Part shown: one piece after another, positions 8,336-22,873 of the stretch | Position numbering within the stretch: the stretch's first letter is position 1 | How the letters are laid out: every line of letters begins with the position of its first letter | Virus record (IMG/VR): IMGVR_UViG_3300025168_000591 | Span: 1 to 25,665 of that record | Length of the DNA: 25,665 bases | DNA from: a virus | Strand: one strand, 5' to 3' | The notes under the pieces: generated by a model | The model's database searches: none | The model's input: the letters and a program-made list of their open reading frames with translations, nothing else | Told to the model about the DNA's origin: nothing | Program-made: the position numbers and the translations under genes

Positions 8336-11300
8336 ATGGCCGAGCCAATAAAGACACCTCACACGGGCATCACTGCAACCTATCTTGGACCTGCGGGGGC
8401 TAACGGCGTTGAGCACTCCTATCGCTTTACAAATTCACAAAGTGGTGCTGTAGAAGACGTGATTACTTCTTACGGACCCGAAGACGATACAGATCCGCAG
8501 GGGGAAAGAAGGGCCGGTTTTAAAAATTTGATGGGCGCTGATTTTGGTAGTACGGCGGGTCAACAATTTGCTACAACGCTTGCCCCGGTTTTTAAAAAAC
8601 TTCAGTACAAAGACCAACGCGGATTTTTTGCCCGAGCTATAAGCCCTACTTTGCGTAGTTTTCCAGCCTTCTTCGTGGGGGGTCCCTGGGATGTAATGGG
8701 GCTGTTGTCTTATGTTCCAGATCCCGTCGAGCTTGCTGCGATGGGTTACGAAGCCGTAACGGGCGACGATCCTTTGGGGATGAACGAAAGGCAGGCAGAA
8801 CGAGGCAAAGCTCTTAGAAAAGACGTGGAAGACTTCTACGGAACGGAAGCAACACGTAGGCGTTTTCAGAAAAATATTCGAGCCGCTGATAATTACATGT
8901 TCGACGTTGCCGGTTTCAAACCTTTTGAAGCCACTGTGGGCACTGACATGACACCGGAAGCCCGTGGCATTTGGGAGAAAATGACAACAACGGGATTAGA
9001 GTTTGCCGTTAGTGGTCCTGTTATGATATCGGGCGTTACTGTTCCGGCTAAAGTTTTACAGGAAAGCGCAAAATTTACCTTTGCCAAACTAGCCAAAGAA
9101 TCCGCCAAAGAATTAGGCGAAGGGGCTCTGGACCCCAAAAACATTCGTTCTTTAATAGACAAAGCCAATGGTTACGTTAACCCACTAACCAAAACGGGAC
9201 GACGAAACATACGCGGAGAAGTGGGTTTTGGAGGGGCCGCAGGTGTGTCTACCGAAGCAGCTTTATCGGCATTGGGGGAAGTAGATCCCGACGCGGCGGG
9301 GTGGGTAAAAACAACTGTCGCCATTGGATCCGGGTTGCTTGCTCCAATCGCTGCTAGGGGTGCGTTCACTACTTTTTTACAGGGTCCGATAATTAGAATT
9401 GGTACAAAGGCTATTGTAGACCCTCTGTTTAGACCCGAAAAATCCGCTGCAAGATTTAGTCAAGACCAGGGTCTTGGAAAGACCGCAGAGGATCGTGCAG
9501 GTGTTGCAAGTGTCGCGAGAATTTTAGAAGAGGCTGTTCTAAACGGACGGAACATAGACCAAGCTTCCGGTTTGGCTTTTACAACTCCCGAACTTGCGAG
9601 AACTGAATCGAATATATTAAGAGCAGAAATCCAGCTTAAAAGAGAACGGTTAGATCAAGAAACGGATCCGGATATTCAAGCCCGTTTAGAAAAAGAAATT
9701 AAAGCAGACGAATCTGACGTTGGTTATTTAAACAGGACGGCTAATTTCCACGAGAGCGTCCTTCAGTCCGCTGCGAACGACTCAAACATTGCTTCTGTTA
9801 ACCGGTATTTTCAAGAAGAAGCTGGTCGTTTAGTTGTAAGAAGAAAACAGTTTTTCAATTACATTGAAAACACTTTTAAGAGATCTGTAGACGATTTAAG
9901 TTTCGGCGGCAGGGATGGCGGAAGCCTCCAAGAACAAAATCTTGATTACAAGAACGCTAAAGAACAAGGGGCTATACCAGAATTTGAAGCTACCCGTCGC
10001 CGGTTGGTTATGGAAGGCGATCCCAAAGGCGTGGAAGCTTCCGAGCTTACGTGGCTAAATCCGCAAACCGCAGAACGTTTCAAAGGTATCCGAGAAGATC
10101 TGTCTTTTCAAATGGAGAAATCTTTTGCGGATGCTCAAGAGGCTGCGGAGGGTCGTGTCAAGATGTGGCAAGACTCCGTGCAATCATACTTGGCGGACAG
10201 AGGTCTGAGATCTGTAGACGATCTGCCGGTTGAAGAGAAAGCTCTTGTTGGTGACATCGTTCGTGGAATTTATGACGACGCCCACCGCGAATTTAGGGCT
10301 TTTGAGAAGGCCGCGTACCGCCGAATAAATGGCTTGGATGACAAAGTTGTTGACGATATCGTCTTTCCTGAAGGGTCAATTGATCCCGCGAATGGTTCCA
10401 ATATATCCGGCATGACCGTGTCGGACTGGGCTACGGGGCGTCTAGAAAACCTTTCGCGAACAGAACGATTCAACATCAAAGAGGTCCCGGTAGAAATAGC
10501 CCAGCTTGCGGGTTCAAGGTCGGTCTTAGTCCAACTAAACCGCCAACGTGAAGAAGCGGTAGCCGAAGGACGATCCAGCGCCGCACAATCTCGCATACCG
10601 GATCTAGAAGCCCAAAGAAACGATGTAGTAGCTAGGAAGACAGAGGCCGAGTCTCGTTTAGACAAACAAGTAGAAACAGAACGTATAGACGCAGAAAGGC
10701 TTGCGCGGTCTTTTGAGGAATATGTTCAAAGTAGCCTAGCGAAATTAGACGATTCCCAAAAAGCAGCCGTGCTGGAGTTTGCTAGCAGCCCCACTGTTGG
10801 AGGCGGCGATTGGTCAAATATAACAATACAACAAGCTCGGGCCAGAGCCCCTGTAGGTCTGGAAGATGTCTTTGCACAAGTAGCGAAACAGAAAAAAGCC
10901 ATAGCTACCCTGGGCGAAGGCGTTACTTCTTCTAAGGCTGTTAGAAATTTAAGAAAAGAAGTTATAGACCTTGGAAAAGAAGCTCAAGGGTTCCAATCAG
11001 ACATAGATAAAATTACCCGAGACTTTTTAGGAACCGGGGACGACGTTGTCATTGAGCCTACGGGTCGTCTGACATCCCGAGATGCGGATGGGGTCGTTGT
11101 TGCCGGTGGCGTTTCTGCAAATGATGTAAAAGAAACAATTTCAAACGTCGCGGAAGCTGCGAGACGCGAAAGTTTTACTAACGGTAAAACTCCAAGATAC
11201 CGAAGCTTACTGCACGTAAGAGGAACCCTCGAACAACTTCTCTCCCCGGAAACGTTCTCCACTTTGGACCCGGCTGCTCTAGCGTTGGCCCGAGAGGCTT

Positions 11301-13150
11301 CTCGTGTTAAAAACAAAGTAGACGACGCACAGGGTGACATACTCGGAAAAGACAGAGGGTCTGCGGTTAAAGTACCTGTGGAGCAAGCCGCGACAAAAAT
11401 CCTGCCCGAAACTACTGCTCCCCTGGCTCGTGCTTCAAATTTAAGAGTGCTCACCGAAGCAACGGCTCCGCTGCCTGATTTTGTCTCTATAAAAAGAGGG
11501 GACGACGGAAAAATTATCACTGACGCAGAGGGCGTTCCGGTTGCGGTGATAGACGAGAAGGCCATAGACGGAAGCTCTCTTTTTGATCTCCCGGAATCTC
11601 CCTTCGAGTTAGTGCGCGTTGGAGAGGCTGGAACTCCGATTGAAATTAGGATTAAACCGGATTTTCCAGTCAGCCCCAGATCTTTGCAGGTTGCGGAGAG
11701 CATCCTGCTGGAACGTTTGGCGTTGAGTTTCTCGGATGGTGTAGATGCAAAAAGCCTCGATTCTTTTCGGAGCAGAAATAAGGAGGCTATTCAGTTCCTT
11801 GAAAACAATGGACGAGGGGACGTTCCGTCTTTAATGACCGATGCCGACGGACTTGCAACCCAGTTGGATGCGTTGAAGACCCTTCGCAATGACAAGACAA
11901 GGCGGCAGCTTACCGAACTGGTAAACAGAGGTCAGCTAGATCTCAAGGGATTAGATATTGACGACTATCTAGATTACATAGGTCAAAGGCGTAAGCGTTT
12001 TTCAGAGGAGAATGCGTTCTCCGAAGTTATAAATGCAGAAGCTGGACGCGGAGCAGAACTTCTTTTTGACCAAGTTATAAGCCCCGGCAATAAATCCCCA
12101 AAAGGATCTCTAAACGAATTTTTATCTCTTGTCCGTGGAAACCGGCAAGCCGAGAAAGGTCTTCAAGCTTCCATAATCGGAGAGCTTTTCAAGCGTTCTA
12201 CTACCGCTACCGACCCTGCCATTCGCGATGCTCTTATAAAACAAACGGGAGACATTGCCGCGTCGGCCTTCGACCCAGCTAAGTTTCGTGAATTGATATC
12301 AAATCCACGTATTCGTTCTCTTATTCAGGAAGCTTTTCCAAACAACTCTGAGTTGTTGCCGGGTTTAGAGAAAATGGCAGTAGCTGCTTTTGAAACATCC
12401 AACTTTACCAAGGGAACGTCAGTCGGTAATAAAATAGATCCGCAATCCGCACTCAGCATGGAGGCGTGGAACAACCTTGGCCGAATAGCGGGCTTGCAGG
12501 TTGCGGATCGGATTAGCTTTATAAACTCACTGGTTGCAGCCGGAGCGGGTAGCCGCATGTTTGGTAACATCGGGAAGAACATAACTGGTAATAAAATAAA
12601 AGACATTTTAATCAACGCTGCTCTTAACCCTGAAATAGCCGTAGGTTTGGCGAGGAAGACCTCTCAATCGGACGGTTTCTTTAAGTCGTTAGCAAAAGCC
12701 GCGATAGACACAGTTACGGCTCGTGGACTGCGTCCCGGTGCTGTGACTCCTGTCCTAAAACAAGGTGAGGAGGAATTTGACGAGCCCGGTAACGTGGGCG
12801 ACCAGTCATCCGTTCAGCCCGCAGGGCAGCCGATCCGCCGAATGGCGGCTAATAACACCCCACTGCGTGCTCCGGCGGGCATGGCGCAGCGAACGTTGGC
12901 GGGACAAGCTCCTCCGGACGCCCGAGTCGGTACGCAGCGAACGTTGGCGGGACAAGCTCCTGTGCAAGGGTCTTCCCTCGCTTCTGCAAACCCCCTCGGA
13001 ACCGCTCTATTCGGCCCAAACGACCCGGTCTTCGGCCTCGGTTTCCGCCACGGCGGTTACGTAACAGGGGGTGCCGGTAGTGGCGTAGGCCGGATGGAAG
13101 AATCCGGTATTATGTCGATCAAGCGCAAACCAAGGCAGTTAGTCGGATGA
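8336..13150 (+). CDS. Giant virion protein (internal/ejection type), 1604 aa
   Basis: This is the largest gene of the window. The start ATG follows GGTAGGG by about 6 nt. The product is mostly charged and helical, with likely coiled coils at about residues 425-470 and 725-800 (alternating Glu, Arg, Lys, Leu). A hydrophobic Gly/Ala stretch near 322-347 could be membrane-active. The C-terminus (about 1500-1604) is Pro/Ala-rich and carries a 16-residue tandem repeat. It ends with a R-H-G-G-Y-V-T-G-G-A-G-S-G-V-G motif and a basic tail. Size and location match giant internal virion proteins such as T7 gp16, although I see no lytic transglycosylase motif. It overlaps the endolysin start by ATGA. 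No family name can be given from reading alone. Confidence 0.6.
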   Translation: MAEPIKTPHTGITATYLGPAGANGVEHSYRFTNSQSGAVEDVITSYGPEDDTDPQGERRAGFKNLMGADFGSTAGQQFATTLAPVFKKLQYKDQRGFFARAISPTLRSFPAFFVGGPWDVMGLLSYVPDPVELAAMGYEAVTGDDPLGMNERQAERGKALRKDVEDFYGTEATRRRFQKNIRAADNYMFDVAGFKPFEATVGTDMTPEARGIWEKMTTTGLEFAVSGPVMISGVTVPAKVLQESAKFTFAKLAKESAKELGEGALDPKNIRSLIDKANGYVNPLTKTGRRNIRGEVGFGGAAGVSTEAALSALGEVDPDAAGWVKTTVAIGSGLLAPIAARGAFTTFLQGPIIRIGTKAIVDPLFRPEKSAARFSQDQGLGKTAEDRAGVASVARILEEAVLNGRNIDQASGLAFTTPELARTESNILRAEIQLKRERLDQETDPDIQARLEKEIKADESDVGYLNRTANFHESVLQSAANDSNIASVNRYFQEEAGRLVVRRKQFFNYIENTFKRSVDDLSFGGRDGGSLQEQNLDYKNAKEQGAIPEFEATRRRLVMEGDPKGVEASELTWLNPQTAERFKGIREDLSFQMEKSFADAQEAAEGRVKMWQDSVQSYLADRGLRSVDDLPVEEKALVGDIVRGIYDDAHREFRAFEKAAYRRINGLDDKVVDDIVFPEGSIDPANGSNISGMTVSDWATGRLENLSRTERFNIKEVPVEIAQLAGSRSVLVQLNRQREEAVAEGRSSAAQSRIPDLEAQRNDVVARKTEAESRLDKQVETERIDAERLARSFEEYVQSSLAKLDDSQKAAVLEFASSPTVGGGDWSNITIQQARARAPVGLEDVFAQVAKQKKAIATLGEGVTSSKAVRNLRKEVIDLGKEAQGFQSDIDKITRDFLGTGDDVVIEPTGRLTSRDADGVVVAGGVSANDVKETISNVAEAARRESFTNGKTPRYRSLLHVRGTLEQLLSPETFSTLDPAALALAREASRVKNKVDDAQGDILGKDRGSAVKVPVEQAATKILPETTAPLARASNLRVLTEATAPLPDFVSIKRGDDGKIITDAEGVPVAVIDEKAIDGSSLFDLPESPFELVRVGEAGTPIEIRIKPDFPVSPRSLQVAESILLERLALSFSDGVDAKSLDSFRSRNKEAIQFLENNGRGDVPSLMTDADGLATQLDALKTLRNDKTRRQLTELVNRGQLDLKGLDIDDYLDYIGQRRKRFSEENAFSEVINAEAGRGAELLFDQVISPGNKSPKGSLNEFLSLVRGNRQAEKGLQASIIGELFKRSTTATDPAIRDALIKQTGDIAASAFDPAKFRELISNPRIRSLIQEAFPNNSELLPGLEKMAVAAFETSNFTKGTSVGNKIDPQSALSMEAWNNLGRIAGLQVADRISFINSLVAAGAGSRMFGNIGKNITGNKIKDILINAALNPEIAVGLARKTSQSDGFFKSLAKAAIDTVTARGLRPGAVTPVLKQGEEEFDEPGNVGDQSSVQPAGQPIRRMAANNTPLRAPAGMAQRTLAGQAPPDARVGTQRTLAGQAPVQGSSLASANPLGTALFGPNDPVFGLGFRHGGYVTGGAGSGVGRMEESGIMSIKRKPRQLVG
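12885..12961 (+). repeat. 29-bp perfect direct repeat, 48-bp period, in the giant virion gene
   Basis: The same 29 bases, beginning CGCAGCGAACGTTGG, occur at 12885-12913 and 12933-12961. The period of 48 bp equals 16 codons, so the protein repeats Q-R-T-L-A-G-Q-A-P in frame. Perfect identity implies recent duplication or ongoing homogenisation in the disordered C-terminal linker. Confidence 0.85.
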
Positions 13151-15118: not shown

Positions 15119-15694
15119 ATGAACGACTTACTAGCAGAAATGGCCTCCGACTCTGAGGCAACCCCCGACAAAATTGACCAGCTACAAGAAGGCAAACTTG
15201 ACGCCGTGTCGCGTCTGGCTAACGAAGCCGCAGCCCTTGAGCACAAGCTGGCCGAAGCCGAGAAGCTTATGAAGGAAACCAAATCCGCTCTCCATAAGAT
15301 AACGGACGAGCACTTGCCCGAGGCATTGGAAGCCATGGGTCTTCAGAAGTTTACCTTGACTGACGGCTCCGAAATCGCCGTCAAACCCATTTACGCAGCA
15401 AGCATTCCACGCGACCGCAAGGACGAAGCCTTCCAGTGGTTGCGTGACCATGACTTTGGCGACCTCGTGAAGAATAACGTAACGGTTACCTTCGGTCGCG
15501 GCGAAGACGAAACGGCCAAAGAGTTTGTAGGACTTTGCGGCGCACAGGGATTCGTTCCCAGCCAACTGGAAAAGGTCGAACCAATGACCTTGAAAGCGTG
15601 GCTTCGGGAACGGGTAGAAGCGGGCGACCCCGTCCCGCTTGATTTATTCGGGGCTTTTATCTCACAACGAGCAACTATCAAGAGGAGTAAATAA
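15119..15694 (+). CDS. Coiled-coil replication-module protein, 191 aa
   Basis: The start is the ATG at 15119, with AGGAG at 15106-15110 (8-nt spacing); it is the first gene of the rightward transcript. Residues about 18-62 form a charged, Leu-rich coiled coil (K-I-D-Q-L-Q-E to A-E-K-L-M-K-E-T-K). A compact alpha/beta domain follows, including F-T-L-T-D-G-S-E-I-A-V and W-L-R-D-H-D-F-G-D-L-V-K. The C-terminal tail is basic (T-I-K-R-S-K). Proteins of this shape often precede an SSB-like gene in phage replication operons, but the biochemical role is not established to my knowledge. A DNA-binding or recombination-accessory role is inferred from the neighbours. The next gene starts 11 nt downstream, with GAGG in the gap. 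Confidence 0.6.
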   Translation: MNDLLAEMASDSEATPDKIDQLQEGKLDAVSRLANEAAALEHKLAEAEKLMKETKSALHKITDEHLPEALEAMGLQKFTLTDGSEIAVKPIYAASIPRDRKDEAFQWLRDHDFGDLVKNNVTVTFGRGEDETAKEFVGLCGAQGFVPSQLEKVEPMTLKAWLRERVEAGDPVPLDLFGAFISQRATIKRSK

Positions 15695-15695
15695 C

Positions 15696-16476
15696 GATGG
15701 CAACAGCAGTAGCTAAAAAGAAAACCGCCGAAGTAGCGGTTATGGACGAGAACATGTTTGCCGCTGACGCAGGCATTGGCGTAAACGACCTTGGCTCTGA
15801 AGATCTCGCGATACCTTTCCTCAAGGTGTTGCAGAAGATGTCCGACGAACTGGACGACCTTGATAATGCCAAGGCCGGTGACATTTACAACACCGTCACC
15901 AAAGAGGTTGTTAAGGGAAAAGACGGCGTTCGTTTGATTAACTGCGCCTACAATCTTCAGTACATCGAATGGGAGCCGCGTGGCACCGGTACTGGCGCAC
16001 CTCATGCCATTTATGGCGCAGGGGATGAAATCCCGGCTACCGAACGAGGTGACGACAACAAGGACTATGTCGCTGGAGGGAGCGGTCGTTATCTTGAGCG
16101 CACTGCCCAGCACTACGTACTTGTCGTTGAAGAAGACGGCATGACCCAACAGGCACTCCTGCCTATGAAGTCAACGCAGTTTAAGAAGTCCAAGCAGTGG
16201 AACAGCGCAATGCGTTCGCTGAAGATGAAAGACAGCAAGGGTGGTCTGTTTACGCCCCCGCGCTTTTCTCACGTTTGGAAACTGGAGACCGTTTCCGAAG
16301 AGAACAAGAATGGATCGTGGCACGGTTGGCAGATCAGTAAGGACGACGTGGTCAAAGACCCGAGTGTCTACGCGGAAGCCAAGTTGTTCGCTGAGTCCAT
16401 TCAAGCGGGTCAGGTCAATGTGAAGCATGTCAGGGAGGAAGACAAACCCTCCTCTGACGAAGACCTGCCTTTCTAG
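15696..16476 (+). CDS. Single-stranded DNA-binding-like protein with SSB-type acidic tip, 259 aa
   Basis: The ATG is at 15697, with AGAGGAG shortly upstream inside the end of the previous gene. After a basic Ala/Lys-rich N-terminus the protein has a conserved-looking core (A-I-P-F-L-K-V-L-Q-K-M, G-D-I-Y-N-T-V-T, Y-I-E-W-E-P-R-G, then F-K-K-S-K-Q-W-N and P-P-R-F-S-H-V-W-K-L). It ends in an acidic tail closing with S-S-D-E-D-L-P-F. That tail mimics the C-terminal peptide of bacterial SSB (D-D-D-I-P-F), which recruits replication partners; T7 gp2.5 also ends in an acidic stretch plus Phe. I infer an ssDNA-binding function from the tail, the aromatic/basic core and the operon position. An OB fold cannot be proved by eye. 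Confidence 0.6.
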
Positions 16477-16480
16477 GTAT

Positions 16481-16509
16481 AACGGGGGGAGGCTTGCCTT
16501 CCCCCGGTT
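16481..16509 (+). promoter_or_regulatory. GC-rich stem-loop between the SSB-like and primase genes
   Basis: A GGGGGAGG arm and a CCTTCCCCC arm pair around a CTTG loop, with outer AAC/GTT pairs and one bulge. Only a GGTTT follows, so it is a poor intrinsic terminator. It buries the only strong purine-rich ribosome site (GGGGGGAGG), which would otherwise lie about 25 nt before the primase ATG. Likely roles are an attenuator, an RNA-stability element or a translation control that keeps primase below SSB. Confidence 0.5.
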
Positions 16510-16516
16510 TACAGCA

Positions 16517-18058
16517 ATGAAAAAAGAAATAGAACGATTTGCACGGTTATTCCGTGGTTTGAACCGGGCCTACGGGGCCTTGGATCTGACTACGAAGGAC
16601 GCTCGTGGGAAGCAGAAGGGCAAATACAAATTTGTCCACGAACCACGGACCAGTGTCACATATGAAAATCACCTGAAGGGTGATACGAGCATTGGCGTTG
16701 TCCCTATAAACGAGGACAATTTATGCCTGTGGGGGGCCATCGATATTGACCAGTATCCTCTGGATCATTCCAAGATTCTGAAGAAGCTGACAGAAGTTGA
16801 GCTACCTCTTGTCGTTTGCCGCAGTAAATCAGGCGGGGCGCACCTTTACCTGTTTCTGACAGAACGGGTAGAGGCAGAAAAGGTTCAGGTTAAATTAAAA
16901 GAGGTCGCTGCCGAAATAGGCTTTGGTGGATGCGAGATCTTTCCGAAGCAGATCAAACTGGTTTTAGAGCGCGGCGACAACGGGAACTTCCTTAACCTGC
17001 CGTACTTCGATCACGAAGGGGGTCTTCGCTACGCCTTCAAAAAGGATGGTAGTGCTGCAACATTGGAAGAGTTCCTGGACCTGGCCGAAGGGTCCGCTAT
17101 AAACGAAAAGGCGTTGGACGAGCTTCTGTCAAAGTCAGTTCCGGACGTGGACCAAAAGCTCAAGGACGGACCTCCGTGCCTGCAAGCTTTGCTGCGTCAG
17201 GGTTTCCCGGAAGGCACTCGGAACAACGGCCTGTTTAATCTGGGTGTGTATCTTAGGAAGGCTTTCCCGGATGACTGGGAAACCAAAATACTTGAGTACA
17301 ACCAAAACATCATGGAGCCGCCGCTAGACCTCAAAGAGGTCAACATTGTTGCGGACCAGATAAAAAAGAAGGACTACCAGTACAAGTGCGCGGACCAGCC
17401 TATCTGCAACTTCTGCAACAAGGATCTGTGTCGTAGCCGAAAGCACGGCGTGGGCGGCGGAGCAAACACTCCGACCGTAGCCAACCTGCGTAAATATGAC
17501 AGTGAGCCGCCGCTGTGGTTCCTCGACGTTAACGGCAGTCCTGTTGAACTGGACACCGAGGGCCTTCAGAAGCAGCCCCGCTTTCAAATACTGTGTATGG
17601 AACAGATAAACTTCATGCCCCGGACCATTACCCGCCAAGCTTGGGAGGCTCAAATGAACAGCCTTCTGGGGCAGATGGTGGATACAGAGGGTGCGGTGAT
17701 CTCTACCTCCGAGGACACCAGCCTTCGCGGTCAGTTCTACGACATGCTAGAAGAGTTCTCCACGCACATGCAGTCCGCTATGGACAAAGAAGAGATCCTT
17801 CTCCGCCGCCCATGGACCGATGAGAAAGAGGGCCGAACATATTTCAGGTTGAAGGACTTCGAGGCTTTCTTGAAGCGGAACAAGTTTTTTGAATACCGGT
17901 CTAATAAAATAGCGCAGCGCCTTCGGGACATAGACGGCAGGTCTGAGCAGTTCCGAATCAAAGGACGAACCGTCCGGTGCTGGTCTATCCCGGCCTTTGC
18001 AAAAATAGAGGAGGCTTTTGAGTCTCGATTTGATGATGAAGAGGACATTCCGTTTTGA
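16517..18058 (+). CDS. Archaeo-eukaryotic-type (AEP) primase with zinc motif and SSB-like C-terminal tip, 513 aa
   Basis: I place the start at the ATG at 16517. The frame is open back to 16427, but that would run through the SSB-like gene and the hairpin. AEP active-site motifs are visible: D76-I-D78 (metal ligands), S-K-S-G-G-A-H109 (the sxH nucleotide-binding motif), and a downstream G-N-F-L-N-L-P-Y-F as in TOTE/phage AEP primases. A PriCT-like helical region follows (about 235-290, L-L-R-Q-G-F-P-E-G-T-R-N). A Cys cluster comes next, C-x5-C-x2-C-x4-C, in a Y-K-C-A-D-Q-P-I-C-N-F-C context. The last residues are D-D-E-E-D-I-P-F, like bacterial SSB. The protein should make primers for the polymerase encoded downstream. 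The primase call is strong; the tail function is inference. Confidence 0.82.
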   Translation: MKKEIERFARLFRGLNRAYGALDLTTKDARGKQKGKYKFVHEPRTSVTYENHLKGDTSIGVVPINEDNLCLWGAIDIDQYPLDHSKILKKLTEVELPLVVCRSKSGGAHLYLFLTERVEAEKVQVKLKEVAAEIGFGGCEIFPKQIKLVLERGDNGNFLNLPYFDHEGGLRYAFKKDGSAATLEEFLDLAEGSAINEKALDELLSKSVPDVDQKLKDGPPCLQALLRQGFPEGTRNNGLFNLGVYLRKAFPDDWETKILEYNQNIMEPPLDLKEVNIVADQIKKKDYQYKCADQPICNFCNKDLCRSRKHGVGGGANTPTVANLRKYDSEPPLWFLDVNGSPVELDTEGLQKQPRFQILCMEQINFMPRTITRQAWEAQMNSLLGQMVDTEGAVISTSEDTSLRGQFYDMLEEFSTHMQSAMDKEEILLRRPWTDEKEGRTYFRLKDFEAFLKRNKFFEYRSNKIAQRLRDIDGRSEQFRIKGRTVRCWSIPAFAKIEEAFESRFDDEEDIPF

Positions 18059-18279
18059 CAAACGAACGAACGAATTGGAGCAAGCTTCTCCGGGAACTGA
18101 GGGACGAGAGGGGCTTTACGCAAAAGGAGCTTGCGTACAAGTCCAACATGCCGCAGCGCACGATAGCGGAATATGAAAACGTGGGAGCCGCACGACAACT
18201 ATCTATCTACAAGATAGAGCAGATATTGGACGCCCTTGGGTATGAGATAGATGTGTTTTTGAAAGTGAAAGATGTTTAG
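18055..18279 (+). CDS. XRE-family helix-turn-helix DNA-binding protein, 74 aa
   Basis: It begins at a TTG at 18055 that overlaps the primase stop (TTGA); GAAGAGGA lies about 10 nt upstream. Residues 7-60 form a complete Cro/CI-type fold with the helix-turn-helix T-Q-K-E-L-A-Y-K-S-N-M-P-Q-R-T-I-A-E-Y-E (22-41), followed by K-I-E-Q-I-L-D-A-L-G-Y. Such proteins bind operators as dimers. Sitting inside the replication operon, it may control the divergent promoter region at 15028-15118. It overlaps the helicase start by 8 bp. The family call is firm; the target is unknown. Confidence 0.82.
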   Translation: MTNERTNWSKLLRELRDERGFTQKELAYKSNMPQRTIAEYENVGAARQLSIYKIEQILDALGYEIDVFLKVKDV

Positions 18280-19795
18280 GTACTTCGGGCCTCCGGGCAC
18301 CGGGAAAACAACCACGCTGCTAAATCAAGTAGACGCTCTTCTTTCAAAAGGGATGTCCCCCAACGACATAGGGTATTTTGCTTTCACACGAAAAGCGGCT
18401 CACGAAGCACGGGACAGGGCGGTAGCGCGTTTTAACCTGGACCCGGAAAAGGACTTTTCATATTTCAGGACGCTGCACAGTCTGGCTTTCCAGTGCCTTG
18501 GAATGTCCGCAGCGGACGTGCTTGGAGACAAGGGTCTGAGAGGGTTCAGCAAGGAGACCGGAGTTGACCTGTCGTCAAACGGGGCCGAGCACATAGCGGA
18601 TGACGGGTTCACCGTTATGAAATCCAACAACCCTATCATGCGGGCTTTTGACCTAGCCAGAAACTCGTTACGTGGGATCCAATATGCCTACAACGTTACA
18701 GAGCTAACCATCCCCTACTACGAGTTTGAGCACCTGTACAAAGAGTACGAACGCTTCAAGATGTTCCACGGACTTAAAGATTTCACCGACATGATGGTCG
18801 AGTTGTCCGAGAAACCGGGCAACCTTCCTGTGCTCAATACGATATTCCTTGACGAAGCACAGGACCTGACCCCGTTGCAATGGCGGGTGGCCCACAGTTT
18901 AAATGAGCGGTGCGAACGGATGTTCGTTGCTGGCGACGATGACCAAGGCATATACCGCTGGGCCGGTGCCGACATAGGGCACTTTGTTTCTCTGGAAGGT
19001 GGGTCCGAGGTCCTCTCCCAATCCTATCGCATACCTAGAAGCGTTCACCGTATTGCGGACTCCGTAGTCCAGCGCATCCAGAGCCGACAGAAAAAGGTTT
19101 GGGATCCCCGACGCGAAGAAGGGAGCGTCGAGAGAACCTACGACGCTAGCACGGTCTCATTTGGGGACAAAGAATGGCTCGTTCTCGCGCAGGCAAACTA
19201 CATGCTGGATGAACTGGCTGACAGGTTGACCTCCAGCGGCCATTACTTCGAGCGCAAGGGCTCCCCGTCGCTCAAGAAAAATGTGCGGAACGCCATAAGT
19301 TCCTGGAACCACATGCAGGAAAGTCCGGGGCACGAGATATCCCTGAAAGAGGCTGTAAACATCTACGACCACATCTCCAGCGGAGCAGGGCGTCTGAAGC
19401 GCGGTGCCAAGAAGATGCTATCCGGTGCCGACGAGCAGGATCTGTTTACGATATCCGTCCTGCGCCAGCATTTTGGTTTGGAGACTGCTGACGACACATG
19501 GGACGAGGCGCTGGACAGAATCGGAGACGAAGACCGCGCCTATGCCTCCGCCCTGCTTAACCGTGGCGTTAACATCTTCGAGAAGCCCAAGATTAAACTG
19601 TCCACGATCCACGGTGCAAAGGGCGGCGAAGCGGACAACGTCCTGCTGTTCACGGACCTTTCCGGCAAGGCTCTCAAGGAGATGGAGAAGAACCCCGACG
19701 ACGCTCACCGCGTTCTGTACGTCGGAATAACGCGCACCAAACAGAACCTTGTTTTGAAAATGCCCGAAGACTCCCAAAGAGGCTGGGCAGTATGA
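18272..19795 (+). CDS. UvrD/Rep-like superfamily 1 DNA helicase, 507 aa
   Basis: All SF1A motifs are visible: Walker A G-P-P-G-T-G-K-T-T (Lys12), Ia F-T-R-K-A-A-H-E-A, motif II L-D-E-A-Q-D, motif III G-D-D-D-Q-G-I-Y-R-W-A-G-A-D, motif IV Q-S-Y-R-I-P, motif V S-T-I-H-G-A-K-G-G-E-A-D-N-V, and motif VI V-L-Y-V-G-I-T-R-T-K. At about 500 residues it is shorter than UvrD or Rep (about 670-720), so the 1B/2B insertions are reduced. In an operon with primase and polymerase, and with no DnaB-type gene in the window, it is a candidate replicative helicase. A repair or recombination role is the alternative. Confidence 0.9.
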   Translation: MFRYFGPPGTGKTTTLLNQVDALLSKGMSPNDIGYFAFTRKAAHEARDRAVARFNLDPEKDFSYFRTLHSLAFQCLGMSAADVLGDKGLRGFSKETGVDLSSNGAEHIADDGFTVMKSNNPIMRAFDLARNSLRGIQYAYNVTELTIPYYEFEHLYKEYERFKMFHGLKDFTDMMVELSEKPGNLPVLNTIFLDEAQDLTPLQWRVAHSLNERCERMFVAGDDDQGIYRWAGADIGHFVSLEGGSEVLSQSYRIPRSVHRIADSVVQRIQSRQKKVWDPRREEGSVERTYDASTVSFGDKEWLVLAQANYMLDELADRLTSSGHYFERKGSPSLKKNVRNAISSWNHMQESPGHEISLKEAVNIYDHISSGAGRLKRGAKKMLSGADEQDLFTISVLRQHFGLETADDTWDEALDRIGDEDRAYASALLNRGVNIFEKPKIKLSTIHGAKGGEADNVLLFTDLSGKALKEMEKNPDDAHRVLYVGITRTKQNLVLKMPEDSQRGWAV

Positions 19796-20446: not shown

Positions 20447-20945
20447 TTTTCAAAGGAAAACGCTTCAGGAAGCCCGAGCAGACTGGCGCAACGCAATTGA
20501 AGGAGATGGGAGCCACTGCCCTTGTTGCGACAGGTGGGGGAAAATTTACCCACGCCACTTTAATTCCTCAATGGCGCGGGCCTTGCTCTGGCTTGTCGGG
20601 GAAGGAGACGATTGGACCGATGTCCCAAACACCGCGCCAAAATGGCTCACGCGAACAAATCAACTGCCCACTGTCCGGTGGTGGGGGTTGATCGAACGAC
20701 AGGAGTCGGACGACCCTACGGTTAAGCATTCCGGAATGTGGCGACCCACAGAACGCGGGTCCAACTTCGCCCATGGCCGTACAACCATTCCGCGAATGGT
20801 CTTTACGTACAACGCCAAAGTCATCCGTTTTGGAGAAGAGAAAATGCGCGTCGAAGAGGCTTTCAAGACGAACTTTGATTACATGCAAGTCATGTTGCCG
20901 GTATCGGATCCTCCGCAACTGGAAATGTGGGAGCAATTACCATGA
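20436..20945 (+). CDS. Phage protein with N-terminal H-C-P-C-C cluster, 169 aa, unknown function
   Basis: The start lies inside the end of the previous gene. The N-terminus holds Cys28, Cys30 and Cys31 with His27 and His41 nearby, a likely metal or zinc site followed by helices. The rest has a W-W-G-L-I-E motif and an F-A-H-G-R-T-T-I-P region resembling a winged-helix DNA-binding layout. It is encoded immediately before DNA polymerase and overlaps it by ATGA. Similar proteins occur in phage replication modules, but I know no assigned function. Confidence 0.6.
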   Translation: MENNFQRKTLQEARADWRNAIEGDGSHCPCCDRWGKIYPRHFNSSMARALLWLVGEGDDWTDVPNTAPKWLTRTNQLPTVRWWGLIERQESDDPTVKHSGMWRPTERGSNFAHGRTTIPRMVFTYNAKVIRFGEEKMRVEEAFKTNFDYMQVMLPVSDPPQLEMWEQLP

Positions 20946-22873
20946 AAAAGAATCTTAAAAAGCCGACGTGGGGCGTGAAAACCGAATGGGTGCCCATTGA
21001 GCAGCTACCGCCCACACCCGAAGGCATCACGGAAATCGCGATTGACTTGGAGACTAAAGACCCACGGCTCAAGTCCCACGGCCCAGGTTGGGCTACCGGA
21101 CACGGAGATGTAGTCGGGTTTGCCGTCGCATACGAAGGTTTTAACGCCTACCTGCCCATTGCCCATGAAGGTGGGGGCAACCTCGACCGGGGCATCGTCA
21201 TGCGCTGGTTCCAGAAGGAGATAGCGAACCACCCGTCCGACAAGATCTTCTTCAATGCAGCCTACGACGTAGGTTGGATGAAGCGCCTTGGTATTGACCT
21301 CAAGGGTAAGTGGATCGACGCCATGCTGGCAGCGCCCCTTCTCAACGAGAACCGGTTCAGCTATTCGCTCAATGCCGTTTCCTACGATTACATGGGGCTG
21401 ATGAAGTCGGAAGCCGCACTCAGAGAAGCGGCCCAAGAGTTTGGCGTGGACCCCAAGGGTGAGCTATACAAACTGCCCGCCTGCTTTGTCGGAGAGTATG
21501 CCGAGGCCGATGCCCAGCTTACGCTCGACCTGTGGCAGGTATTCAAGATGGAACTAACCAAGGAAGACCTCTGGCAGGTCTTTGACATGGAGACCTCTGT
21601 CCTGCCGCTTTGCATAGAAATGACGTGGAAGGGTGTGCGGGTTGACCTTGATTCCGCCGAGCGCCTCAAGCAAGACCTCCTCAAGATCGTTAAGGGCATC
21701 AGGTCTGATGTTAAGAAGGAGACGGGGCTCTCTTTCGAGCTATGGGCCGCTGCCAGCATAGCCAAGGTCTTTGACCATCTGAACATACCCTATGGACGCA
21801 CCAAGACGGGATTGCCCAGCTTCACCAAGAACTTCCTGTCCCAGCACGAGCATCCCATTGCCCAGAAGATTGCCGAGGCGCGAGAGTACGACAAGATGGG
21901 CAACACTTTCCTGTCGAGCATCTTTCGTTACGCAGAGAAGGACCGCATCCACGGACACATAAACCAGCTTCGATCCGAAGGTGGCGGCACGGTCTCCGGG
22001 CGCATCTCTATGTCTAACCCCAACCTACAGCAAATCCCCGCTCGCAACCCCGAGATGGCCCGAAAGATACGCGGACTGTTCTTACCGGAGGAAGGAGAGC
22101 AGTGGGCTTCGATGGATTTCGACCAGCAGGAACCACGCATCCTCGTCCACTTCTCAAGTCTTGTCGGGAAGATGGGCCTGACAGGGTCCGACAATTTCGT
22201 CCAAGCATACCGAAACGACCCGAAGACCGACTTCCATCAGATGGTGGCCGACATTGCCAATATTCCTCGCAAGCAGGCCAAGACCATCAACCTGGGTATC
22301 ATGTACGGCATGGGTCAGACGCGGCTCGCGGAGCAGTTGGATGTGTCCACGGACCAAGCTAAACGGCTCATGCGCCAGTACCACAACGACGTGCCTTTTG
22401 TGAAAGAGCTTATGGACACGGTGACGCGGAGAGTGTCTCACAAAGACAAGGGCGGGTTTGTCCGCTCGCTTCTGGGCCGCAAGTGCCGCTTTGATCTGTG
22501 GGAGCCAAACCTGTTCTTATCTGCCCGAGCCCTGCCCCTTGCCGAGGCGAATATCGAGTACGGCGACAACATCAAACGTGCATATACATACAAGGCGTTG
22601 AACCGCCTGATACAGTCCAGCGCAGCGGACCAGACAAAAGCTGCCATGGCTGCGGTCTACAAGGAGAAGAACAAGATCCCCCTCGTGCAGATCCACGACG
22701 AACTGGCCTTCTCTGTGGCAGACGCAAAAGAAGCCGAAGAACTGTGCAAGATCATGGAATCCGCCTACAAACTAGAGGTGCCAAGCCCTAGCGACATATC
22801 GCTAGGGCCAAACTGGGGAAACTTGACGAAGTTGGATAAGTCCGATAGTATCCCAGAATTAAAGGATGAATAG
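20942..22873 (+). CDS. polA: DNA polymerase I-type (family A) with 3'-5' exonuclease, 643 aa
   Basis: I choose the ATG at 20942. It overlaps the upstream stop (ATGA) and has GGGAG about 10 nt before it; an in-frame ATG at 20927 has a poorer context. The exonuclease motifs are A-I-D35-L-E37, N-A-A-Y-D-V-G-W and Y-A-E-A-D-A-Q. The polymerase motifs are S-M-D392-F-D394-Q-Q-E-P-R (A), R443-K-Q-A-K447-T-I-N-L451-G-I-M-Y455-G (B) and I-H585-D586-E587 (C). There is no 5' nuclease domain, as usual for phage replicases. The residue aligned with E. coli Phe762 is Leu451. It should be the main replicase, working with the primase, the SSB-like protein and the helicases encoded upstream. Confidence 0.96.
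   Translation: MKKNLKKPTWGVKTEWVPIEQLPPTPEGITEIAIDLETKDPRLKSHGPGWATGHGDVVGFAVAYEGFNAYLPIAHEGGGNLDRGIVMRWFQKEIANHPSDKIFFNAAYDVGWMKRLGIDLKGKWIDAMLAAPLLNENRFSYSLNAVSYDYMGLMKSEAALREAAQEFGVDPKGELYKLPACFVGEYAEADAQLTLDLWQVFKMELTKEDLWQVFDMETSVLPLCIEMTWKGVRVDLDSAERLKQDLLKIVKGIRSDVKKETGLSFELWAAASIAKVFDHLNIPYGRTKTGLPSFTKNFLSQHEHPIAQKIAEAREYDKMGNTFLSSIFRYAEKDRIHGHINQLRSEGGGTVSGRISMSNPNLQQIPARNPEMARKIRGLFLPEEGEQWASMDFDQQEPRILVHFSSLVGKMGLTGSDNFVQAYRNDPKTDFHQMVADIANIPRKQAKTINLGIMYGMGQTRLAEQLDVSTDQAKRLMRQYHNDVPFVKELMDTVTRRVSHKDKGGFVRSLLGRKCRFDLWEPNLFLSARALPLAEANIEYGDNIKRAYTYKALNRLIQSSAADQTKAAMAAVYKEKNKIPLVQIHDELAFSVADAKEAEELCKIMESAYKLEVPSPSDISLGPNWGNLTKLDKSDSIPELKDE
22785..22808 (+). repeat. Perfect 10-bp inverted repeat (stem-loop) inside the 3' end of the polymerase gene
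   Basis: GCCCTAGCGA and TCGCTAGGGC are exact reverse complements around a CATA tetraloop. No U-tract follows, so it is not a standard terminator. It lies about 65 nt before the polymerase stop and about 70 nt before the next gene. It may be an RNase III-type processing site, an mRNA 3' stabiliser or a protein-binding site. Confidence 0.8.

Follow-up and report, generated by a model that had tools for sequence, protein, structure and literature searches.

A shared C-terminal tail on a gp34-like protein and an archaeo-eukaryotic-type (AEP) primase drifts in concert across phage lineages

Introduction

In the T7 replisome, a phage single-stranded DNA-binding protein (SSB) and a primase-bearing protein both possess acidic C-terminal tails. 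Those of gp4, in which a TOPRIM primase is fused to a helicase, attach to basic patches on gp5, the family A DNA polymerase (PMC12593628), and the tail of gp2.5 has been implicated in contacts with the polymerase and the primase-helicase (PMC5686142). An autoinhibitory position of the gp2.5 tail in the protein's own ssDNA groove has also been proposed, and crystals of T7-type SSBs display the C-termini in the groove of a neighboring molecule (PMC5686142). The terminal phenylalanine of gp2.5 is important according to Ghosh et al. (2009), as cited in PMC3997047. In CcPol-MP, a PolA-type primase of mobile elements that is paired with its own SSB, the predicted contacts are made mostly through the variable C-terminal tail of the SSB (PMC10061031). 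Bacterial SSBs end in a tip of the DDDIPF type, preceded by a disordered linker. Human PrimPol is an AEP primase that reaches RPA through a C-terminal acidic motif, and to our knowledge it does not copy an RPA tail. How SSBs regulate PrimPol is treated in PMC4333378.

Here, we analyze a viral DNA stretch of 25,665 nucleotides (IMG/VR record IMGVR_UViG_3300025168_000591, hereafter the window), whose replication module comprises a gp34-like protein, hereafter gp34, and an AEP primase (Table 1). This locus resembles T7 in that a putative SSB and a primase share an acidic, hydrophobic-ended C-terminal tail. It differs from T7 in three respects: its primase is an AEP enzyme that stands alone, gp34 cannot be recognized as a T7-type SSB, and the terminal signatures of the two proteins drift together from lineage to lineage, a behavior of which we know no description for T7. 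The tip is nearly identical to that of bacterial SSBs in the window's own clade and likewise follows a disordered linker; however, it is carried by a primase and by a member of PF23977, without PF00436, and distant lineages end in IV, II, PY, or EF. The AEP domain is akin to those of CRISPR-associated Prim-Pol (CAPP) and TOTE proteins in fold and sequence, but is placed here in a phage replication module together with PriCT-1 and a C-terminal region. As in PrimPol, a C-terminal acidic motif of an AEP primase may point toward an ssDNA-binding protein, and as in CcPol-MP an element-encoded priming enzyme is paired with its own putative SSB, although the CcPol-MP enzyme is a PolA derivative without a shared tail. 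By analogy, we would describe the arrangement as T7-like shared-tail docking, in which the primase is of the AEP type and the signature is lineage-specific and drifts. A literature search, with most subscription papers outside its scope, returned no AEP primase with an SSB-type tip; the arrangement is only partly new, given that acidic C-terminal tails are already in use on both gp4 and gp2.5 of T7.

Table 1. Positions in the window of the two tail-bearing genes, their tips, and neighboring replication genes.
Feature	Position	Strand	Remarks
gp34-like protein (PF23977), putative phage ssDNA-binding protein	15697..16476	+	259 aa; putative SSB activity
gp34-like protein, C-terminal tip SSDEDLPF	codons 16450..16473	+	direct reading; all 44 distinct tails in the clade at ≥75% identity end in P-F
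AEP primase: CAPP-like Prim-Pol domain, PriCT-1, C-terminal winged-helix-like region	probably 16517..18058 (listed ORF 16427..18058)	+	
AEP primase, C-terminal tip DDEEDIPF	codons 18032..18055	+	direct reading; all 41 distinct tails in the clade at ≥75% identity end in P-F; low pLDDT
gp33-like protein (PF23984, E=4.5e-31)	15119..15694	+	same module, without tip; Mu Gam-like annotation in relatives
UvrD-like SF1 helicase (PF00580)	18272..19795	+	adjoins primase in most relatives; further candidate receptor
Family A DNA polymerase (PolA; PF00476, E=1.3e-65)	20927..22873	+	candidate receptor of both tails

Results

Identity of the two tail-bearing proteins

The primase matches AEP-TOTE (E=4.7e-13; 49.7 bits against a cut-off of 27), PriCT_1, and phrog_21866, annotated 'primase' (E=5e-102). 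Its catalytic residues D76, D78, and H109, within DxD and SxGGxH-like motifs, are invariant in the primase alignment, which places the protein among the AEP primases. The AEP domain is similar to that of CAPP (pdb, 7nqe) both by Foldseek (E=5e-11) and by profile comparison (E=3.5e-14), and scores below the cut-off of the NCBIfam CAPP model (36.9 of 200 bits). The AlphaFold2 model has a pLDDT of 85.9, with values near 50 in the last blocks, consistent with a disordered tip. Because many homologues match the listed reading frame only from residue about 20-31, translation probably starts at the Met at 16517 and not at 16427, and the gp34 and primase genes would therefore not overlap.

The original prediction labeled the upstream protein SSB-like. 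It is not a canonical SSB: profile searches gave no PF00436 (bacterial SSB) match in the window or in 14 related phage records, and the protein belongs instead to Pfam PF23977 (Pam3_Gp34; E=1.2e-62; 212.2 bits against a curated cut-off of 27; residues 13-240), a family present in about 500 phage records, and to phrog_2402, whose function is unassigned in PHROG. Neither PF00436 nor phrog_18154, a small phage SSB, was found in the complete phages DSL-LC04, ct3Et533, psg01, Pan1, HTVC023P, R5C, HTVC027P, PB1, Lydia, and Pam3. The AlphaFold2 model of gp34 (pLDDT 83.8; final 13 residues below 50, hence a predicted disordered C-terminus) has no significant fold match in the PDB (best E=0.034), its weak neighbors including RPA, PrgE, SSB M5, Rim1, and other OB-fold SSBs. 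In BFVD, the model matches mainly phage proteins without names, the gp34 sequence gave only chance matches to solved structures, and one depositor annotation among the relatives reads 'T4 gp32-like'. We retain the putative ssDNA-binding role: gene position, the tail, the weak fold hints, the lack of another recognized SSB, and this annotation suggest that gp34 is probably the ssDNA-binding protein of the phage.

The module also encodes, by profile search, an SNF2-like helicase on the minus strand and a small HTH protein (18055-18279) with a possible TTG start overlapping the primase stop; relatives have similar small genes with the same overlap. Upstream, a 1604-aa protein (8336-13150) is without a convincing counterpart in PHROG (best E=0.005), and the gene at the equivalent position of DSL-LC04 is annotated as a DNA transfer protein.

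Conservation of the tails

The two tips are present in consecutive genes letter for letter as originally reported, an observation that was right and indeed understated. All close homologues (71-98% identity, about 60 distinct per protein) end in P-F in both gp34 and the primase; none lacks the tail, the case that would have spoken against the original prediction. In the clade with at least 75% identity, positions -4 to -6 are nearly always acidic; position -3 of the primase is hydrophobic (V, I, L, or M, with one Q), and T is also accepted there in gp34. The linker preceding the tip varies in sequence and length among close homologues. Only 2 of 1194 other distinct forward ORFs of at least 150 aa in these loci end in PF and none (0/1194) in [DE]xPF, so that the two endings exceed what chance would give. 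No further copy of the tail was found in the module, with gp33, the UvrD-like helicase, and PolA as controls, and the tails of gp33-like proteins are basic. The primase thus ends in a conserved, probably disordered, SSB-type terminal peptide that it has in common with the neighboring putative SSB. A docking partner used by both proteins is implied, and to that extent the original prediction is supported.

Overlap with the downstream gene was considered as a cause of the tail and rejected, since in the window it involves only the last codon base and the stop (18055-18058).

Co-variation of the tails across lineages

Across distant lineages the two tails change together, the gp34/primase ends being DLPF/DIPF, DIV/NIV, APY/TPY, SII/DII, SEF/AEF, and GNY/PNY (the last at locus L427). 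At greater length, the pairs read xPF/SPF in the DSL-LC04 clade, QDIV/ENIV in the HTVC027P clade, HSEF/KAEF in Kokobel2, SDEY/KSEF in JeffCo, DIPFA/PPPFV in ct3Et533, EPEL/EPDL at L302, and DEDIPF/DNDIPF at L424. An exploratory pairing test on 21 lineages below 50% identity gave p=0.007, 0.033, and 0.087 for the last two, three, and four residues, respectively. No control gene pair gave a comparable result; the smallest value was that of primase-PolA (p=0.03, last two residues only).

Further lineages came from genome contigs of bacteria and archaea, which were scanned once the hypothesis was in place, and contributed the pairs KQPY/EAPY, EAPY/ETPY, KSII/TDII, ATPF/KVPF, and NVPF/EVPF. Same-genome pairing was better than shuffled pairing in the 12 later lineages alone (p=0.0002-0.0011) and in all 31 lineages below 50% identity (p=0.0001-0.012), although p-values over many lineages are optimistic, the lineages being kin, and the claim is carried by the later-found lineages and the control genes. 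When the last three residues of gp34 were ranked against all ORFs of at least 100 aa in the same locus, the primase was strictly the best match in 23 of 49 lineages (3.0 expected) and, within the later set, in 11 of 15 (1.5 expected), compared with 2/50 for gp33, 2/46 for the UvrD-like helicase, and 0/39 for PolA. At whole-genome scale, the primase ranks first or tied first in DSL-LC04, JeffCo, Kokobel2, and ct3Et533; in HTVC027P, it comes second when three residues are compared and first when five are, and in psg01 it fails, TPY lying inside a longer tail.

The agreement has exceptions. Nanhaivirus (Pan1, R5C) and HTVC023P keep the gp34 tip with a primase devoid of one; at L413, L397, and L444, gp34 has a basic end (RRR or FRR) while the primase keeps a hydrophobic one (DIPF, DHI, or DQI); the tails also disagree at L431, L440, and L437. 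The acidity of gp34 is weak in the DSL-LC04 clade, where agreement is mostly confined to the last two residues. In the psg01 clade (L134, 1802-3346; L305-L384), the gp34-like TPY is internal in the primase tail, five further residues with a terminal F (QIENF-like) coming after it.

Such disagreeing pairs, and the inflation of counts by relatedness, would be compatible with acidic hydrophobic ends that have merely been kept, their agreement within lineages being inherited and not coupled. However, the pattern is absent from control genes of the same loci, is replicated in the later-found lineages, and leaves a partial Mantel test positive when primase tree distance is controlled (50 lineages, p=0.013-0.037); we consider this explanation quite improbable. 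A C-terminal degradation or stability signal would likewise be shared and terminal, and proteases can read a free hydrophobic C-terminus. Yet the acidic stretch and P-F look like docking tips, and drifting co-variation is unexpected for a signal read by a host protease, because the host differs little among SAR11 phages, making such a signal highly improbable.

Copying of the tails at the DNA level, or their gene conversion, was rejected: the codon identity of shared residues is 0.50 within genomes and 0.47 between them. Because codons agree no more within genomes than between them, the likeness is selected at the protein level.

Host SSB tips and separate phage SSBs

The original prediction also pointed to host receptors of the SSB tip, namely PriA, RecQ, and chi. 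The tails could fill the SSB-tip pockets of these proteins, RecO, or similar ones, thereby recruiting or distracting them, and the tips of the window do almost equal those of bacterial SSBs, which end in DD[DE]IPF in seven alpha- or gammaproteobacterial-type genomes. Comparable ends on some mobile-element AEP primase-helicases with no gp34 gene found nearby would also fit such mimicry. Against it, the phage tails do not follow the host SSB tip in the SAR11 comparison: SAR11 genomes bearing such phage contigs have SSB tips DDDIPF or DDEIPF, whereas their phage pairs are PY/PY (L488, L497), and SAR11-related phages have II/II (L500) or IV/IV (HTVC027P, cultured on SAR11). Phages of Acinetobacter, Providencia, and Salmonella offer a second control, as they encode a separate small SSB (phrog_18154) ending in DDDLPF or DDDIPF. 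In phages with a separate SSB, the primase ending matches that of gp34, being E-aromatic in JeffCo and Kokobel2 and EM/EF in PMBT28; that the primase tail follows the canonical SSB tip is thus rejected for Acinetobacter-type phages, whose primases track gp34 and not the phage's own DDDLPF SSB. A host-pocket reading is therefore unlikely as a general rule, and the part of the original prediction that named host receptors does not hold at that level; host docking is a possibility for the window's own DIPF-type clade. A phage-encoded pocket is the simplest reading of the SAR11 and Acinetobacter-type controls, so the tail probably serves as a private docking code for a site that the phage encodes and does not mimic host SSB.

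Second small SSBs (phrog_18154/7364) occur in gp34-bearing Acinetobacter-, Salmonella-, and Vibrio-type phages (L447, 10837-11160; L449, 9249-9590; L453, 11149-11628), with the canonical tips DDDLPF, DDDIPF, and DDGIPF. Separately, longer AEP primase proteins on alphaproteobacterial contigs (L498, 4890-7235; L512, 4926-7706; L513, 2201-4951) end in DEDIPF or DEDLPF. They comprise 752-911 aa from the assumed start, have DUF5906 or weak DUF927 helicase-type matches, and lie in loci where no gp34 gene was found. The tip is sporadic and not conserved among their relatives, one of which ends in DGDDGSPF.

Discussion

Based on the above data, we propose that gp34 and the primase present the same C-terminal docking peptide, which would consist of a flexible, usually acidic linker, a lineage-specific hydrophobic signature, and the free carboxylate. 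Both tails would enter one and the same pocket of a replisome component that the phage encodes, and this pocket would co-evolve with the signature. We favor this mechanism with moderate confidence; the sharing, conservation, and co-variation of the tails are direct observations, the disorder of both tips is a model prediction, and binding to one pocket is what these would suggest. The most likely receptor would be the family A DNA polymerase, in the manner of T7 gp5 for the gp4 and gp2.5 tails. The searches recovered PolA from every one of the 14 records with a primase; over the full set of 18 records, PB1 alone lacks it.

The next candidate receptor would be the DNA-binding groove of gp34 itself. 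PB1 retains a gp34 tail (EEF) while having no PolA, so that this groove or another protein may also read the tail. The gp34 tail might be autoinhibitory in its own ssDNA groove, with the primase copying it to dock on gp34-coated ssDNA. This would account for the primase tracking gp34 and nothing else, and for the retention of the gp34 tail in phages that lack this primase or PolA; it is also in line with the placement of C-termini in T7-type SSB crystals (PMC5686142). However, the tail is disordered in the predicted gp34 model, and some gp34 proteins lack a tip where the primase retains one, so we regard docking on gp34 itself as conceivable but doubtful.

Under the mechanism that we favor, with a shared pocket on a replisome component, gp34 bound to single strands and the primase would take turns on that pocket, and primer synthesis and hand-off to the polymerase would occur on phage ssDNA, not via host SSB partners. 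The broader proposition, that an SSB-like protein and an AEP primase carry a private, lineage-specific C-terminal code with a single phage-encoded reader, which drifts in concert and keeps the replisome apart from host SSB partners, is in our judgment evenly balanced.

If the proposal is correct, an AEP primase would enter the replisome with the same short peptide as the phage ssDNA-binding protein, and the use of one pocket by two tails, already known from T7, would have arisen also with an unrelated primase type. It would further give functional access to PF23977, the gp34 family, which has no assigned function and for which the natural tail variants would be ready-made swaps for finding the receptor.
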